A DNA stretch of 47,927 nucleotides. It comes from Natrinema gari JCM 14663. Lineage in GTDB: Archaea; Halobacteriota; Halobacteria; Halobacteriales; Natrialbaceae. The notes beneath the pieces are model-generated. The model saw only the letters and a program-made list of their open reading frames with translations. It was not told the DNA's origin and made no database searches. Position numbers and translations under genes: made by a program. The DNA lies in NCBI RefSeq assembly GCF_000337175.1, contig NZ_AOIJ01000032.1, forward strand, positions 91,425-139,351, in the 5' to 3' direction. The first letter of the stretch is position 1; each line of letters starts with the position of its first letter. Of this stretch, positions 29,421 to 36,654 are shown piece by piece.

Positions 29421-29495
29421 GGGTTGGTGATCTAGTCCGGTTATGATACCTCCTTCACACGGAGGAAGTCGGCAGTTCGAATCTGCCCCAACCCA
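29421..29495 (+). tRNA. tRNA-Val (anticodon CAC)
   Basis: 75 nt. The acceptor stem GGGTTGG (29421-29427) pairs with CCAACCC (29488-29494), with discriminator A. The anticodon stem is CCTCC/GGAGG with loop TTCACAC, giving anticodon CAC at 29456-29458. The T arm is GGCAG-TTCGAAT-CTGCC. The CCA end is not encoded. A TTAA-containing TATA-like element lies about 30 nt upstream. The 3' part is the attachment site of the adjacent mobile element, which keeps the tRNA intact. Confidence 0.96.
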
Positions 29496-29497
29496 CT
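29462..29497 (+). repeat. attL: 36-bp direct repeat in tRNA-Val 3' end
   Basis: Identical over 36 bases to 36619-36654. It covers the 3' half of the anticodon stem through the discriminator plus CT. Confidence 0.93.
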
Positions 29498-29679
29498 ACG
29501 CTCCTTCCGTCGCGTGAAGTAGTAAACCACCAGAGGGCAGTGTGTTCGTCTTGCACCCCTCCAGCAATTCACAAAGTCGCTTCCCAATTCTGTGTGGAAT
29601 CGCAGTACGGCGTCCCGTTGCCCAATAAGTAGTCGGGGAGAATGCTATAACCCCGTCAAGAGGCAAAAACAACCGGCTC

Positions 29680-29879
29680 CCTATCCAAGTAAGCCTCATG
29701 TCAATGTACGGAACTCCCTCCGTCGGGGATATGTGACGGAATCGCTCAATGCTGGTGAGCCTCAAGATGCGACAGCAGACAGAGTGGATATGACTATCGA
29801 AGTACTGGATAAGCACTATAATCACGCAACAAAGAGTGAGAAGATGAAACGACAGGAGAAACACCTAATGGATATCTAA
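29680..29879 (+). pseudogene. C-terminal remnant of a tyrosine integrase
   Basis: The last 55 or so codons read SLRRGYVTESLNAGEPQ, then VDMTIEVLDKHYNHATKSEK. This is the end of a tyrosine recombinase with the second catalytic arginine region and the nucleophilic Tyr in LDKHYNHAT. Nothing upstream in frame encodes the N-terminal and core-binding domains: the tRNA gene lies just 185 bp before. It differs from the intact integrase at the other end (which ends LDEHYDARTESEK), so it probably comes from an earlier integration at the same tRNA. Confidence 0.7.
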
Positions 29880-29880
29880 T

Positions 29881-30330
29881 TCATTCTGTAGCCCCATCGT
29901 AGAACCCCCTTAGATACAACCAGATTTTGTCCACTGAATCTTCATTTATTCCATCTATATCTATCAGGTCCTCTTTTGTAAGTTCATCCAGGGTGTTTAC
30001 TACTATTTGTTCAAGGATATTCAATGCAGTTACCTCTCCAACACGGTTTATCTCAATTAAACTCTCAAATAGCACCCGTTCGTCAAAGTCCATTCCCACT
30101 TCGACATCATCTATGCGTGTAGGGTGGTCAATTGGGCGTTTAGAAAGGGGCTGTCGATCAACTGCCTTACTGGCTTGATCTTCTAACAACCGTAGTTCAG
30201 TCTCTTCAAGTTGAAACTTTTGTTCCCCGACTGTTAGCCTCGTATATCCTTCTGATAGATTGCTTATATTTATTTTCAAACGCCCCGTTTTGTCTTCTCT
30301 ATCAGAAATATCCACAGGACAATATAGCAT
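29881..30330 (-). CDS. Hypothetical protein with helix-hairpin-helix-like C-terminus
   Basis: 149 aa from the ATG at 30330. A TTG at 30366 in the same frame is less likely. The N-terminal half has short beta-like stretches (KINISNLSEGYTRLTVGEQK). The C-terminal part, VLFESLIEINRVGEVTALNI followed by ELTKEDLIDIDGINEDSVDK, reads like a helix-hairpin-helix fold, often used for non-specific DNA binding. Codon use is AT-rich, unlike the core genes. It converges on the integrase remnant (one base apart). Function unknown. Confidence 0.65.
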   Translation of the reverse strand: MLYCPVDISDREDKTGRLKINISNLSEGYTRLTVGEQKFQLEETELRLLEDQASKAVDRQPLSKRPIDHPTRIDDVEVGMDFDERVLFESLIEINRVGEVTALNILEQIVVNTLDELTKEDLIDIDGINEDSVDKIWLYLRGFYDGATE

Positions 30331-30366
30331 CGATTGGTGATAGTATTTGGGATGATTAGAAATCAA

Positions 30367-30780: not shown

Positions 30781-31245
30781 TCAGTCTCGTAAGTGGGATT
30801 CCTCGACGAGAACGAGCTGAAGTGACGGGAATGGAGCAAAGGGAACTTCGTCGTCCACCAGCTGTTCTAACGGAAGTGGTGTCTCTCGTTCGTCCCAGTA
30901 CGGGAGATATCCGTCGAGTACATCGAGGGGTACAACAATGACGACATCATCGTCATCGGGGTATTTCGGTGTTCGGTCAGCCAACGTGTCGCCATCGTCG
31001 AACTCCCATTCTTCGGCGTCAATTCCGGGGATATTCATCACGACCAGCGCGATGGGCTCATCTGCTTCATCATCATGAACAATGTCCCCGTAGATGAAAT
31101 CGCATTCATCGTCATCGAGGTCTTCCTCGGAATCCCTTCGGATGACGAGGTCTAGGGACCGTTGGGTTGGCTCATCCGAACCCGGTGGCGTCCATGGTTC
31201 TTCGTCGGTTCGTCCGTCCGGTGGTCCGCCAGTCTTTCTGGTCAT
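30781..31245 (-). CDS. Acidic hypothetical protein, second gene of element operon
   Basis: 154 aa. The first 55 residues are Pro/Asp/Glu-rich and probably disordered. The remainder, DIVHDDEADEPIALVVMNIP through DDVVIVVPLDVLDGYLPYW, looks like an alpha/beta domain. No known motif is seen. Its ATG overlaps the stop of the upstream gene (ATGA at 31242-31245), so the two are made together and probably act together. It may be the smaller partner of the 256-aa protein. Unknown function. Confidence 0.7.
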   Translation of the reverse strand: MTRKTGGPPDGRTDEEPWTPPGSDEPTQRSLDLVIRRDSEEDLDDDECDFIYGDIVHDDEADEPIALVVMNIPGIDAEEWEFDDGDTLADRTPKYPDDDDVVIVVPLDVLDGYLPYWDERETPLPLEQLVDDEVPFAPFPSLQLVLVEESHLRD

Positions 31246-32012
31246 AGGTAATTGGTGAGGTCCGATTGCCAGGTATTGAGTGCATCAACCCGCTTCTCCA
31301 AGACTTCTGGGAGATTCTCCCGCTGAGGATTCCCGCTATTGTCCTCGGTTCTTTTGCGGATGCCCCAGGAACCCGAACATGCCACAACTGATTTCGGGAG
31401 TTTCCGGAGTCTCCTCGGGGAATTACACCCGTTTACGAAGATTCGGTCCAAATCCAGGACCTCCTCTGCAGTTTCGACGTGATTGGCGAGTCGTCTTCCA
31501 GAGTTGTACTGGGTGGCATCAAACGCAACCGAAGCACCGAGTTCCTCGACGAGTTCACGACATCGCTCGAAGTGCCAGTCTTCCCACCCGAGAATCGTTG
31601 GGTAGAGTGGCATATCGATGCCGCGCTCATTGAGCAGGTCCTTCGCTGCTAACTGACGCTTCACGCCCTCGTCGATTTCCTTGACCAGCTCGCGTCGATC
31701 GAGGTCGGGGTACGTGAATCGGTCTCCGACGAATGCTCCCTGTGCGATGTCTTCAAGCTCCGCCAGTCTGTCTACCACGGTCGACGTCTCGCGTCCGAGG
31801 AGGTTCTTGTCGCTCTCGAACGTCGTGATGAACAGGTCTTGATCTGGGAGAAGAAACGCCCACCGTGGTTGATTCACGAACCACGATGAACGCCGGAACT
31901 TGCAGGCAACGAATGGGACGTACTCTGGATTCCGGGCAAACAGCCGCTGATGCACGTGATGGCTCGGGTGAATCTTTGCTCCGAAGTCGTGTGGAAACGG
32001 GTCGTCCGTCAT
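31242..32012 (-). CDS. Unknown element protein, possible TIM-barrel (transglycosylase-like)
   Basis: 256 aa. Features in order: a basic aromatic N-terminus (ACKFRRSSWFVNQPRWAFLLP), a helical middle, then MPLYPTILGWEDWHFERCRE, ASVAFDATQYNSGRRLANH and DRIFVNGCNSPRRLRKLP, ending VACSGSWGIRKR. The alternation of beta-strands ending in Gly/Asp and helices resembles a TIM barrel. The spacing loosely recalls tRNA-guanine-transglycosylase relatives (including DpdA of DNA 7-deazaguanine systems), but the catalytic residues cannot be verified and the protein is short. First gene of a two-gene operon, divergent from the CARF-like regulator. Confidence 0.6.
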   Translation of the reverse strand: MTDDPFPHDFGAKIHPSHHVHQRLFARNPEYVPFVACKFRRSSWFVNQPRWAFLLPDQDLFITTFESDKNLLGRETSTVVDRLAELEDIAQGAFVGDRFTYPDLDRRELVKEIDEGVKRQLAAKDLLNERGIDMPLYPTILGWEDWHFERCRELVEELGASVAFDATQYNSGRRLANHVETAEEVLDLDRIFVNGCNSPRRLRKLPKSVVACSGSWGIRKRTEDNSGNPQRENLPEVLEKRVDALNTWQSDLTNYL

Positions 32013-32021
32013 GTGGTGTCA

Positions 32022-32049
32022 TAGGTGCTGTCGTTTTTCGTGGCACCTA
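32022..32049. promoter_or_regulatory. Inverted repeat at the element operon promoter
   Basis: TAGGTGC (32022-32028) and GCACCTA (32043-32049) form perfect 7-bp arms with a 14-bp spacer. They lie between the ATG at 32012 and the TATA-like CTATATG near 32053-32060, so at the expected transcription start of the minus-strand operon. A possible operator for the adjacent regulator. Confidence 0.4.
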
Positions 32050-32182
32050 CCCCCATATAGTAGACTTGCATAGAAAAGGTTTTTGCTGAAATTTGCACAA
32101 GGTGGGTTATTAGTAGAGCATAGTTACTCACTCCCCCATGTTTTGGTTCGCCTAGTCCACAGACCAGCTAAAGTGCCAAAGG

Positions 32183-32188
32183 ATTATA
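32183..32188 (+). promoter_or_regulatory. Putative TATA element of the CARF-like regulator
   Basis: ATTATA within GGATTATACT is centred 28 nt before the ATG at 32214, matching a leaderless transcript. Confidence 0.5.
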
Positions 32189-32213
32189 CTCCGGAAAAGA
32201 CGAGTGGGCGCAT

Positions 32214-33116
32214 ATGGCCGAACAAGTCCACTATATTCCAGTTGGATTCGACTTTGAGCGGTTGATACACCCAATTTCGAAGGGAGAGATGGGCGCGAAC
32301 CGAGTGGTCTTAGTCACTCATGATGGAGATCCAGACAATGATGACACCGAGGAGGCAGCCAGACTTGCAGGCAACATGGCGAACCAACTGGAACGTTCCT
32401 TCGACTTGCTTGATGTCGAAGTAGAGTCTATTGGGCTGGAGGTCGACGAGTTGTATAAGTACGAGCGCCTCTACCCGATGGCTTACGATCAGTTACTGGA
32501 TGAATTAGAGGAGGGAAACGAGGTTTACGTGAATATCTCCTCTATGCCCCGGACGACTGCGTTCGCCTACGCGACTGCAGCTGACTCAATCATCGCCGAG
32601 TATCAACAGGAGGTGGAGGGAATCAGAGAGAGACTTCACACGTACTATGTCCCGCCAAAACGGTATCTTGTCCTCGATATGATTCAGAGACTGAGAGAGG
32701 CCAAGGGCCTTCTTGAGGATATGGGTGAGGATTTACGAGTTCATCCAGAGTACATCAAAATCCGGGAACTGCTTGATAAAATCGATGAGAACGGTGTGAC
32801 AGAGGGTGTTCGAGACCTTAACGAGGGGATGCATATTGAGTTCCCATCTTCTCCGGGAAGTAACGTTGAAGATTTTGAGGGGGACGTCTTGCACTTTCTG
32901 GGGGCCGAAGGTACATTCTCGTCGACTTCGGAGCTTGCTGAACAAATGGCAGCGTATCTGAACGAAGAGTACAACGAGTCATTTCGGAGTAGAGTCCAAT
33001 ACAATGTCTCGAACTTGGAGGAGAAGGGATACGTTGATCGCGAGAAACATGGGAATCGGCTCGAAACGAAACTATCGAAGGTAGGTGAGATGTGGGTAGA
33101 AACCCATCATAGGTGA
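32214..33116 (+). CDS. CARF-like/winged-helix transcriptional regulator (HFX_2341 type, formerly DUF6293)
   Basis: 300 aa. The N-terminal half (1-150) is a Rossmann-like ligand-sensing domain: QVHYIPVGFDFERLIHPIS, RVVLVTHDG, LYPMAYDQLLDELEEGNEVY and the NISSMPRTTAFAYATAAD loop (from about 107), the layout of the CARF-like haloarchaeal HFX_2341 family. A linker follows, then a winged helix (about 222-300: LAEQMAAYLNEEYNESFRSR, VSNLEEKGYVDRE). CARF domains bind cyclic oligonucleotides or similar ligands, and the wHTH binds DNA. It is divergent from the two-gene unknown operon, which it may control. Confidence 0.82.
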   Translation: MAEQVHYIPVGFDFERLIHPISKGEMGANRVVLVTHDGDPDNDDTEEAARLAGNMANQLERSFDLLDVEVESIGLEVDELYKYERLYPMAYDQLLDELEEGNEVYVNISSMPRTTAFAYATAADSIIAEYQQEVEGIRERLHTYYVPPKRYLVLDMIQRLREAKGLLEDMGEDLRVHPEYIKIRELLDKIDENGVTEGVRDLNEGMHIEFPSSPGSNVEDFEGDVLHFLGAEGTFSSTSELAEQMAAYLNEEYNESFRSRVQYNVSNLEEKGYVDREKHGNRLETKLSKVGEMWVETHHR

Positions 33117-33604: not shown

Positions 33605-35086
33605 TTACGTTGGTTTCGGGGGGATGTCCACGTGGTCATACTCCGCGAAGTCGGGGTCCTCGACAATTCCCTTGAGGAACCGCCACGTTACCTCCGGCTT
33701 GAACGCTGAGCCATACTGTTCCTCGAACCATTCCCATGTCGGTTGCCAGCCGTACTGGAGATGGCGGCATGCAACACGAATCCGCTCGTTATGTATGAGT
33801 GTACCAATGCCATCCTGTTCGGCTTTCCGTTGGAGTGCTTCCGCTGTCGTCTGCGGATTTTCTCGAGCAGGCCAGATCGTCCGTGGTTCCTCGTTGGGAG
33901 TCGCGGACCTCAATGCAGTCGTCCCCTTCGAGCGGGCTACCGTGGAACCGGACGCGCCAACATTATACCCTTGCTCAGAGAGATAGTCAAGAGCGGTGTC
34001 ACGCCCACCCTCATCGCTTGTGAGTGCGTGACCAAACTCGGTGGCTTCCCACGACGAGACGCTGAAGATTCGAGAACTTCCGCTTTTCCCGCCGATGAGG
34101 ACGACCTTCTCACCGTGTTCGTAGTCCCACTTCCGGTAGTCCTTCTTCGACAACTGGAGCGGCGCGTGTACGTCCTGCTTCGTGAACTCGCCGTTACACC
34201 CGACAGCACCGTAGAAGTACGCCGGTATCATCGTCGCCCCACCACGCTTTTCCTCTCGGGCGAACGCCCCGCCTTTCACTCGAATTACTGCGACACTCCG
34301 GGGGTTCCCCGATGCGTGGGCATACGGGGAGAACTCCTGTGTGTTGTACATCGACCACTCTGGAACATCAGCGGGGTCGTCAGGATATTCATCAACGCGC
34401 TCGATGGAGGGAGTCTCGATCTCGCGCTCATCGCACTCCAGTTCCAGCACAGCCGCATCAAGGTCGAGATTCGGGTGAATCTCCGCGTGTGGCTCTACCG
34501 TTGGGGACTGTGCCGTTGGCGTTGTCACGCCACCTCGATGCACGAATACGTCGCGTAGTACCTCTGCGTAGGATGCTGGCAGCTCAGTACTCACGCTCGC
34601 GGCTTCTGAGATGATACGGTCGTGTTCCCACTCCGGTTCTATCTGTACCTTGGGGAGCGTCGAACTCTCGTGTGTCACGCTGGGGAGCCTGAACAACCGC
34701 TTCCGGTGGTAGAGTCCAACGTCCAACTCTGCACCCGTCTCCTCGCAGAACGTCTCTGCTCGCCCCTTGAGGCGTTCCCGTTGTTCCTCACCGTTCACGA
34801 AGCGGGGGAGGTGAACGTGGATAGAGCGATTCCCCGAGAAGTAGAGCGAACACTCGTGGAAGGGAACACCAAGCCAATCGTCGGTGAACTCCCGGAACCA
34901 CTCGATAAGTGTCTGTGCGCTCTCCTCGTGGTACGCGTCAGACTCGATGTGGATAGGGTAGAGTACGCGGTCGTCGTCTTCGCACCCATCCTGTAGCTCC
35001 TTGCCGATGAAGCTTGTTCCGCTGACTTCGTATCCGCTCTCGAACTCGTCTTGCCGTTCGTACTCCTCGGGCGTCAGAAGGTACAC
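33605..35086 (-). CDS. Archaeo-eukaryotic primase-like replication protein of the element
   Basis: 493 aa if started at the GTG at 35086. Near the N-terminus YPIHIESDAYHEES resembles primase motif I. LYFSGNRSIHVHLPRF (84-92) is the sxH-type motif II. LDVGLYHRKRLFRLPSVTHE (around D122) is motif III with the usual R-x-P-GS/SV ending. Together they mark an AEP fold, as in PriS and plasmid primase-polymerases. The C-terminal 300 residues are unassigned. The same frame stays open and protein-like to 35254 (about 56 more codons, e.g. LPAEWDAVPCVQYGFPEDKG) without any ATG, GTG or TTG, so the true N-terminus may be frameshifted. Likely role: replication priming. Confidence 0.65.
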   Translation of the reverse strand: MYLLTPEEYERQDEFESGYEVSGTSFIGKELQDGCEDDDRVLYPIHIESDAYHEESAQTLIEWFREFTDDWLGVPFHECSLYFSGNRSIHVHLPRFVNGEEQRERLKGRAETFCEETGAELDVGLYHRKRLFRLPSVTHESSTLPKVQIEPEWEHDRIISEAASVSTELPASYAEVLRDVFVHRGGVTTPTAQSPTVEPHAEIHPNLDLDAAVLELECDEREIETPSIERVDEYPDDPADVPEWSMYNTQEFSPYAHASGNPRSVAVIRVKGGAFAREEKRGGATMIPAYFYGAVGCNGEFTKQDVHAPLQLSKKDYRKWDYEHGEKVVLIGGKSGSSRIFSVSSWEATEFGHALTSDEGGRDTALDYLSEQGYNVGASGSTVARSKGTTALRSATPNEEPRTIWPARENPQTTAEALQRKAEQDGIGTLIHNERIRVACRHLQYGWQPTWEWFEEQYGSAFKPEVTWRFLKGIVEDPDFAEYDHVDIPPKPT

Positions 35087-35526: not shown

Positions 35527-36537
35527 TCAGTCCATCTTGAACATCTCCCGCCGTAGGTTTCGCTTCTCAGACTCGGTTCGAGCGTCGTAGTGTTCATCGA
35601 GGGTTTTTACTCCGACGTTCATCCGTTCGCTAATGAGTTCCTTACGGTGGCCTTCGTTGAGCCAGTGGGTGATAGCACCTCGCCGGATTGGATGAGGGCT
35701 GACGGAGCCGGGACACTGGGAGGCTGCTCGGTAATCCAGTGTGGCTTCGCACTCGTCTTGATCTCGTCCGTGGGGACAGTCTCCGGTATAGTGGCACGGA
35801 CGGGTTAGACGGCGGATGTGCATCCGTAGGTTCGAACGAGTCATACGACCGTGACGGGATGCGAATATAGGCTCCCGGCCGTGATCGTCAGTCGTTCCTT
35901 TGTGGTTCATCTGGAGATAGTCGTCAAGGATCTCGGAAGCCCACGTATGGAGGTTGATCTCTCGATTGGCCTCAGATTCGTTTTTCAGCGGTGTTCCCTG
36001 ATCGGGACGATGCTGCACCTCAATGTATTGTTCCTCTGGATAGTAGTCATCCACGTCAAGGGAGCGGGCAGTACCAAGCCGTATTCCAGTATCCCATAAG
36101 ATCGCGAACAGCGCGTGACGGAGCGTAGCGTACTCGAACTGGTTGAGATAGTTGCGGATCATCTCCGCTTCCTCTGCATCGAGCTTGTCGGATCGAACCT
36201 TATCGTCCGGTTCATTGAGGACCATATCCTCGACGACCCATGACTCAATGAGTCCCATCGACTTGCACCACTTGAGGAATGCTCGGAGGGTGCTGAGTTC
36301 GTTGTAGAGGGTCATCTCGCTGATACCGTCGTTCCGACGGACAGACTTGAAGTCGGAAATGTGGAAGCCGTCGATCTCGCAGATGTTCTCGAGGTTATCG
36401 TCTTCGCAGAACTCGAGGAAGCGGGAGAGCGACGAGCTGTAGTTGTAGTAAGTCGAGTCAGCCCACTCTGGTTTCATTTCGGAGAGGAATCGATTCACGG
36501 CCCGTTCGGGTTTCATCTGGGTTCGGCGTTCGGACAT
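35527..36537 (-). CDS. int: Tyrosine recombinase/integrase (XerC/D-like)
   Basis: 336 aa from the ATG at 36537. The open frame continues into attR, but that part is just translated tRNA sequence. It integrates and excises the element by strand exchange at tRNA-Val. The N-terminal SAM-like core-binding domain (about 10-105) contains STYYNYSSSLSRFLEFCE. The catalytic domain has R153 (DTGIRLGTARSLD), H282-x-x-R285 (HPIRRGAITHWLNEG) and the nucleophile Y317 (LDEHYDARTESEK). A CHYTGDC...C cluster between the R and HxxR boxes is a zinc-binding-like insert common in haloarchaeal integrases. It lies directly inside attR, 82 nt away, as usual for such elements. Confidence 0.93.
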   Translation of the reverse strand: MSERRTQMKPERAVNRFLSEMKPEWADSTYYNYSSSLSRFLEFCEDDNLENICEIDGFHISDFKSVRRNDGISEMTLYNELSTLRAFLKWCKSMGLIESWVVEDMVLNEPDDKVRSDKLDAEEAEMIRNYLNQFEYATLRHALFAILWDTGIRLGTARSLDVDDYYPEEQYIEVQHRPDQGTPLKNESEANREINLHTWASEILDDYLQMNHKGTTDDHGREPIFASRHGRMTRSNLRMHIRRLTRPCHYTGDCPHGRDQDECEATLDYRAASQCPGSVSPHPIRRGAITHWLNEGHRKELISERMNVGVKTLDEHYDARTESEKRNLRREMFKMD

Positions 36538-36618
36538 GGTTATCTTGCGGAACGCCGTGGGCTGATTCACAGAACCGGGTAGAGAGACCTCCACTCTGCG
36601 GTTGCGAGCGGAGCGAGC

Positions 36619-36654
36619 GAGGAAGTCGGCAGTTCGAATCTGCCCCAACCCACT
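36619..36654 (+). repeat. attR: 36-bp direct repeat of tRNA-Val 3' end
   Basis: Identical to 29462-29497. Marks the right junction of the element. No acceptor 5' half follows, so it is not a second tRNA gene. Confidence 0.93.

Follow-up and report, generated by a model that had tools for sequence, protein, structure and literature searches.

In 2025, conjugation of a nucleobase to a protein was reported for one type of CBASS. In type IV CBASS, a QueC-like protein (Cap9) is reported to join a deazaguanine to the N-terminal glycine (MGGS) of the CD-NTase (PMC11996544; PMC13279940), and Cap10, a TGT-family protein, has been remodelled to bind the deazaguanine-modified CD-NTase N-terminus (PMC11996544). 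QatB carries an analogous MGTS tail, and its unstructured N-terminus is essential (PMC13279940). On the regulatory side, HFX_2341 is a repressor with a Csa3-like fold by HHpred, and its action is not confined to CRISPR (PMC11434293). Here we set against these systems a three-gene unit in Natrinema gari JCM 14663, located in a window (the whole stretch of DNA analysed) of 47,927 nt from assembly GCF_000337175.1, contig NZ_AOIJ01000032.1, positions 91,425-139,351 of the forward strand.

Table 1 Features of the three-gene unit and of the integrated element that carries it (positions in the window)
Feature	Position	Strand	Basis or remark
CARF-type (HFX_2341/DUF6293, PADLOC CARF3) winged-helix regulator, 300 aa	32214-33116	+	faces the two-gene operon
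TGT-fold protein, 256 aa, Cap10-like	31242-32012	-	AF2 model, VIA-align, PADLOC TGT
Small acidic partner, 154 aa	30781-31245	-	ORF; ATG inside the end of the 256-aa gene
Inverted repeat TAGGTGC-N14-GCACCTA	32022-32049 (arms 32022-32028, 32043-32049)	no strand	sequence conservation and covariation
Left attachment repeat, 3' part of tRNA-Val	29462-29497	no strand	36-bp exact direct repeat
Right attachment repeat	36619-36654	no strand	36-bp exact direct repeat
tRNA-Val hosting the left repeat	29421-29496		
Tyrosine integrase of the element	35527-36648	-	phrog_1 integrase 1.5e-28; Phage_integrase 3.7e-8

The ORF positions, the divergent arrangement, the 4-bp overlap of the 256-aa and 154-aa genes (31242-31245) and the inverted repeat were all where the original prediction had put them (Table 1). 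Its interval for the unit (31242-33116) left out the second operon gene, that of the 154-aa protein, so the unit is taken here as 30781-33116; the operon itself spans 30781-32012 on the minus strand and holds no other genes. The claim that the unit lies inside a mobile element held as well: exact 36-bp repeats, one of them at tRNA-Val, bound an integrated element of 7.2 kb that encodes an integrase and in which the local G+C drops from ~0.65 to ~0.51. A 95-aa ORF adjoining the tRNA-Val (29592-29879, +) has a C-terminus, LDKHYNHATKSEKMKRQEKHLMDI, resembling that of the element integrase, LDEHYDARTESEKRNLRREMFKMD; it is likely an integrase remnant, which would suggest an earlier insertion at the same tRNA-Val. 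The element also encodes a 493-aa protein (33605-35086, -) that weakly resembles a primase (phrog_16345, 1e-4) and is probably the product of its replication gene. Downstream of the operon lies a gene for a 161-aa protein with a C-terminal helix-hairpin-helix (29881-30366, -; HHH_5 6.6e-6), which is not conserved with the three-gene unit.

Conservation of the three-gene block across haloarchaeal elements had been proposed as one check on this unit. Of the 16 loci compared, 15 have the CARF gene, a 256-aa-like gene and a small acidic partner gene together (the same plasmid record accounts for two of the 16), and such units are carried on elements and plasmids and beside restriction genes. At the remaining locus, L049, a TrmB regulator takes the place of the CARF gene. 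Flanks of the 16 loci were unrelated, with no gene besides the block common to all. Searches with the 256-aa protein returned full-length relatives on haloarchaeal plasmids and chromosomes from several haloarchaeal families, and no homologues were found on phages or viral contigs. The TGT-like match was sparse, occurring in 37 of 392 genomes. McrBC, GmrSD, a DNA methylase and an Eco57I-type methylase are among the locus neighbours, and these are the surroundings of a defence island. The operon continues past the acidic partner, with 393-aa and 310-aa genes of no family, solely in Haloplanus sp. GX21 (L013:7225-9335), neither gene being conserved at the other compared loci.

For the 256-aa protein, AlphaFold2 predicted a barrel with high confidence (pLDDT 87.7), and VIA-align aligned 250 of its 256 residues with the TGT of Z. 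mobilis (Z 17.5, 3.3 Å), so that the possible TIM barrel of the original prediction can now be specified as a TIM barrel of the TGT type. All 50 matches listed by VIA-align were TGT, with Cap10 not among these listed matches; Foldseek gave TGT and DpdA (7ui4) among the best matches, together with other TIM barrels. The PADLOC 'TGT' model PDLC00912, which we take to stand for Cap10 from PADLOC naming and from the CD-NTase adjacency seen here, matched the 256-aa protein weakly (8.3e-5), its relatives at up to 2.9e-42 and a sister group at up to 2e-88; judged by this profile, the protein is a remote member of the PADLOC 'TGT' family. Two groups of TGT-like proteins, A1 and A2, were homologous to each other (hhalign 99.95%). 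Pfam, NCBIfam and PHROGs returned nothing reliable for the 256-aa or the 154-aa protein, and a PDB sequence search gave no match for either of them or for three TGT-like profiles, the pentatricopeptide matches of group A2 in that search being repeat artefacts. Since solved Cap10 chains showed no sequence match to the 256-aa protein or to the TGT-like profiles, and profile comparison with archaeal TGT gave no match, the link to TGT rests on the fold and the PADLOC name.

Residue equivalences to archaeal TGT are proposed from the order of motifs and strands rather than from coordinates. The TGT motif ...ATPVDIPTP pairs with ...HIPTDYPVY in CD-NTase-linked members, which would place the TGT base-recognition Asp at Asp97, a residue kept in 40 of 55 TGT-like members, including all 14 of the CD-NTase-linked ones. 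FGAGHP of TGT pairs with IGLQSP, and LFDSAAY with AAAGQRW; the latter pairing would put the TGT nucleophile Asp at Ser213. None of the 55 members has Asp at position 213, which is always A, S, T, C or V, and the 256-aa protein, with Ser there, is apparently without the transglycosylase nucleophile. At barrel position 141, Lys is present in 41 of 55 members and is replaced by Leu in the 256-aa protein and by Leu, Val or Met throughout the 12-row clade (100/100) to which it belongs. Grouping in the tree of TGT-like proteins follows the head type of the partner.

The barrel could also be read as that of an active base-exchange enzyme of the DpdA/TGT type, modifying the nucleic acid of the element, the host or a virus, with the acidic protein as a specificity or inhibitor subunit. 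The fold and the Foldseek matches to TGT and DpdA would agree with this, and DNA deazaguanine systems are known from archaeal viruses as well as from bacteria and phages (PMC13329287). We nevertheless consider it unlikely, given that no member carries Asp in the column matched to the nucleophile, that a chain of 256 aa lacks portions present in TGT and DpdA, and that its constant companion is a tailed protein and not a preQ0 pathway gene.

Sister units consist of a TGT-like gene followed, mostly within ~20 bp or with an overlap, by a gene for a partner that has a Met-Gly start, a Gly/Ser/acid-rich disordered tail and a variable head. Gly2 was present in 34 of 40 partners encoded directly after haloarchaeal TGT-like genes versus 4 of 101 annotated haloarchaeal plasmid genes, a count in which the rows are related, some start codons were chosen by the analyst and MG is the sole available start in many loci. 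The heads were CD-NTases of PADLOC clade PDLC00805 (up to 1e-163) or of a second clade, PDLC00788 (1.5e-81), a ThsB-like TIR (2.9e-18) followed by an 8xMP membrane protein, a DsbA/Thioredoxin_5 domain, a 1015-aa protein without known family, or a small acidic domain as in the 154-aa partner. Haloarchaeal CD-NTase partners begin MGGGY, MGTD or MGNT. A CARF gene is divergent from several CD-NTase units (L065, L130, L131, L133, L135, L136, L138) and from DsbA units (L066, L142), the CARF type being the same in both as in small-head units; TrmB-like genes face other units of both CD-NTase and small-head types.

Several individual loci extend this picture. Seven of them (L130, L135, L136, L065, L128, L129, L132) have a CBASS layout of TGT-like gene, MG-tailed CD-NTase and ~180-230-aa two-TM protein; several of these have a divergent CARF regulator and lack QueC. 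At L061:4754-5874, a TGT-like gene is accompanied by an MG-tailed ThsB-like TIR and the 8xMP membrane protein, in what looks like a Thoeris-type signalling unit with a TGT-tail module. An MG-tailed 1015-aa protein without PADLOC or Pfam match directly follows the TGT-like gene at L070:2582-5629. L140:6112-8760 contains two nearby TGT-like genes (380 and 327 aa), the first preceding a protein that begins MSSDDSGSAR... and has no MG tail. Natrinema gari itself has one canonical QueC, elsewhere, its QueC matches lying on other contigs than the unit. Beside haloarchaeal TGT-like units no QueC/Cap9 neighbour was found apart from a distant one, a canonical queC ~3 kb from the unit at L127, the sole case and one that we read as coincidence; several carriers (e.g. 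G396, G187, G242) had no QueC above weak PP-loop matches.

These relatives bear on whether the pair might instead be an addiction module resembling toxin-antitoxin systems, with one product toxic and the other neutralising it, the CARF protein an ordinary autoregulator and the element stabilised as a result. A pair of short, overlapping genes that has its own regulator and is carried on mobile elements and plasmids would fit such a module. However, sister units carry CD-NTase or TIR heads and membrane proteins (8xMP), which are parts of immune signalling, and toxin families went unmatched in Pfam, NCBIfam, PHROGs and PADLOC; we regard an addiction module as unlikely.

In the alignment, the 154-aa partner has a conserved N-terminus (MTRKTGGPP), a disordered acidic tail and a conserved C-terminal domain ending in SHLRD; its AF2 model has a pLDDT of 77, with residues 1-3, 5-16 and 39-47 below 50. 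Comparison with SH3-like, PAZ and Spt5 domains gave weak matches (best Foldseek E 0.88; VIA Z 7.1) and we assign no fold name; an HNH match (phrog_2118, 0.006) was taken as chance. The description of the operon as two unknown effector-like genes has to be revised: the products are a TGT-fold protein and a partner with a conserved exposed N-terminus. Position 2 of the partner is Thr, not Gly, and the Met-Gly start associated with Gly2 deazaguanylation is absent. Across the 12 rows of the clade of this pair, partner residue 2 is Pro, Thr or Ala and not Gly; outside that clade the exceptions to Gly2 are L058, L060, L067, L071 and L140. Small-partner relatives begin MGNR[VT]GSPP or MPRKGGGPP, the former being close relatives that have Lys141. 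Residues seen at position 2 all normally permit removal of the initiator Met, so an exposed N-terminus would be kept. The replacement of Gly2 and the loss of Lys141 amount to a single correlated change on a single branch, to be taken as suggestive.

The regulator had been described as CARF-like and of the HFX_2341 type, and the profiles agree; together with the co-occurrence of the three genes, this means that neither outcome named in the original prediction as speaking against it was obtained. Its N-terminal CARF-like domain matched Pfam PF19810 (HFX_2341_N) at 2.5e-17 (63.9 bits vs a cut-off of 30), the whole protein matched PADLOC CARF3 at 6e-117, and a C-terminal winged helix follows from full-length matches to the CARF3 and NF051475 profiles. 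The DUF6293_C wing matched at 6.5e-5, yet with 23.8 bits against a cut-off of 27, and the protein stays below the cut-off of the HFX_2341 equivalog NF051475 (239 vs 500 bits). Natrinema gari has three further PF19810 genes. Chromosomal HFX_2341-like proteins, one of them from Natrinema gari itself, form a separate clade (100/100), and the CARF protein of the unit joins those of small-partner and DsbA-type units (97/100).

This placement also matters for a metabolic or stress role, in which the CARF protein would answer a nucleotide or salt cue, as HFX_2341 may, and the TGT-fold/acidic pair would form a housekeeping, chaperone-like complex. HFX_2341 is a global repressor beyond CRISPR (PMC11434293), and DsbA/thioredoxin heads occur in sister units. 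We find this role quite unlikely in view of the sparse distribution (the 37 of 392 genomes given above), the carriage on plasmids and elements beside restriction genes, and the position of the regulator in a clade apart from chromosomal HFX_2341.

Upstream of the 256-aa gene, the inverted repeat lies 9 bp from the start codon. Taken alone, a repeat of 7 bp is unremarkable, being present in 17% of shuffles of the same region, but this one keeps its position throughout the CARF-linked small-partner loci. Its arms show compensatory changes in 6 of 7 pairs, with 94.5% of cells paired, and a covariation of 0.509 vs 0.283 for shuffled data, the observed value being reached in 0 of 500 shuffles. The repeat noted at the operon promoter by the original prediction is thus both conserved and covarying in these loci. 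It was absent in two TrmB-regulated relatives, both from one close group, and the palindrome was not found in CARF loci of the DsbA or CD-NTase type, where start codons are less certain. On comparative evidence it is probably a CARF operator; as the spacing varies (14-17 bp), a leader hairpin is the other candidate. Neither a SMODS CD-NTase (Pfam) nor a Cas10 palm was matched in the Natrinema gari genome, which argues against a resident cyclic oligonucleotide source, not against CARF binding.

With slightly better than even confidence, we interpret the three genes as one mobile, probably defensive unit whose architecture is related to type IV CBASS, combining a tail reader, a tailed partner and CARF control. 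The 256-aa protein would be a non-catalytic, Cap10-like reader of TGT fold that binds the N-terminal tail of the acidic partner. In TGT, the barrel pocket holds a deazaguanine base. Here the pocket would instead hold the exposed tail of the co-translated 154-aa protein, much as Cap10 is reported to hold the tagged end of the CD-NTase. The partner would consist of this tail and a small C-terminal head standing in for the CD-NTase, TIR or thioredoxin heads, and tail binding would keep the head inactive or in place. Because both the acceptor Gly2 and the barrel Lys (141) are replaced, the reader may recognise an unmodified tail or one that bears a different tag. The CARF/winged-helix protein would act as the unit's own regulator, binding the inverted repeat at the operon start and setting the amount of protein, with transcription of the operon released or activated once its CARF domain is liganded. 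An immune role is likely because sister units carry CD-NTase and TIR heads.

More tentatively, and at somewhat less than even likelihood, non-catalytic TGT-fold tail reading could be a general platform of archaeal immunity, rather than something particular to type IV CBASS, that in haloarchaea accommodates CD-NTase, TIR, thioredoxin and small partners, exchanges CARF for TrmB control and has no dedicated QueC/Cap9, with the 154-aa clade having changed acceptor and pocket together, so that its N-terminal tag would be another one or absent. Should readers of TGT fold and their tailed partners indeed form such a broad haloarchaeal platform, with swapped heads and without local QueC, the tag, its maker and its purpose would become testable, including whether the housekeeping QueC or another enzyme tags the tail or whether it stays untagged. 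For CARF repressors of the HFX_2341 type, the unit further supplies a definite target along with a predicted operator, and tail reading could be tested in its small two-gene operon as a minimal system.

Compared with TGT and DpdA, the 256-aa protein shares the (beta/alpha)8 fold over nearly its full length; unlike them, it is much shorter, has no profile-detectable sequence similarity and belongs to a family in which the apparent nucleophile Asp is replaced in all members. Its regulator has the domain order, length and family profile of HFX_2341 and Csa3-type CARF-wHTH regulators, but represents a separate clade tied to one operon, whereas HFX_2341 is a chromosomal global regulator. The qatABCD system likewise has a non-CD-NTase partner with an N-terminal tail (QatB MGTS; PMC13279940); it differs in having a QueC-family enzyme (QatC) and no TGT-fold protein, and the heads are unrelated as far as tested. 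A further comparison is with type IV CBASS. In both, the gene for a TGT-fold protein accompanies that for a partner with a disordered tail and a conserved, exposed N-terminus; the partners of haloarchaeal sister units include CD-NTases, and the PADLOC 'TGT' profile recognises the reader. In contrast to type IV CBASS, the partner here is a small acidic protein, with no CD-NTase in the operon or, by Pfam SMODS, in the genome; residue 2 is Thr; no Cap9/QueC is adjacent and no effector gene is nearby; a CARF repressor belongs to the three-gene unit; and heads are swapped across haloarchaeal units. The term 'undescribed system' of the original prediction is therefore too strong, since the pair of TGT-fold protein and tailed partner is shared in kind with type IV CBASS. 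To judge from the literature searched, which leaves most subscription papers out, the wider head-swapping family appears not to have been described. The three-gene unit is real and conserved, a variant within a known kind, Cap10 with a tailed partner, and seems to be a reduced relative of type IV CBASS.
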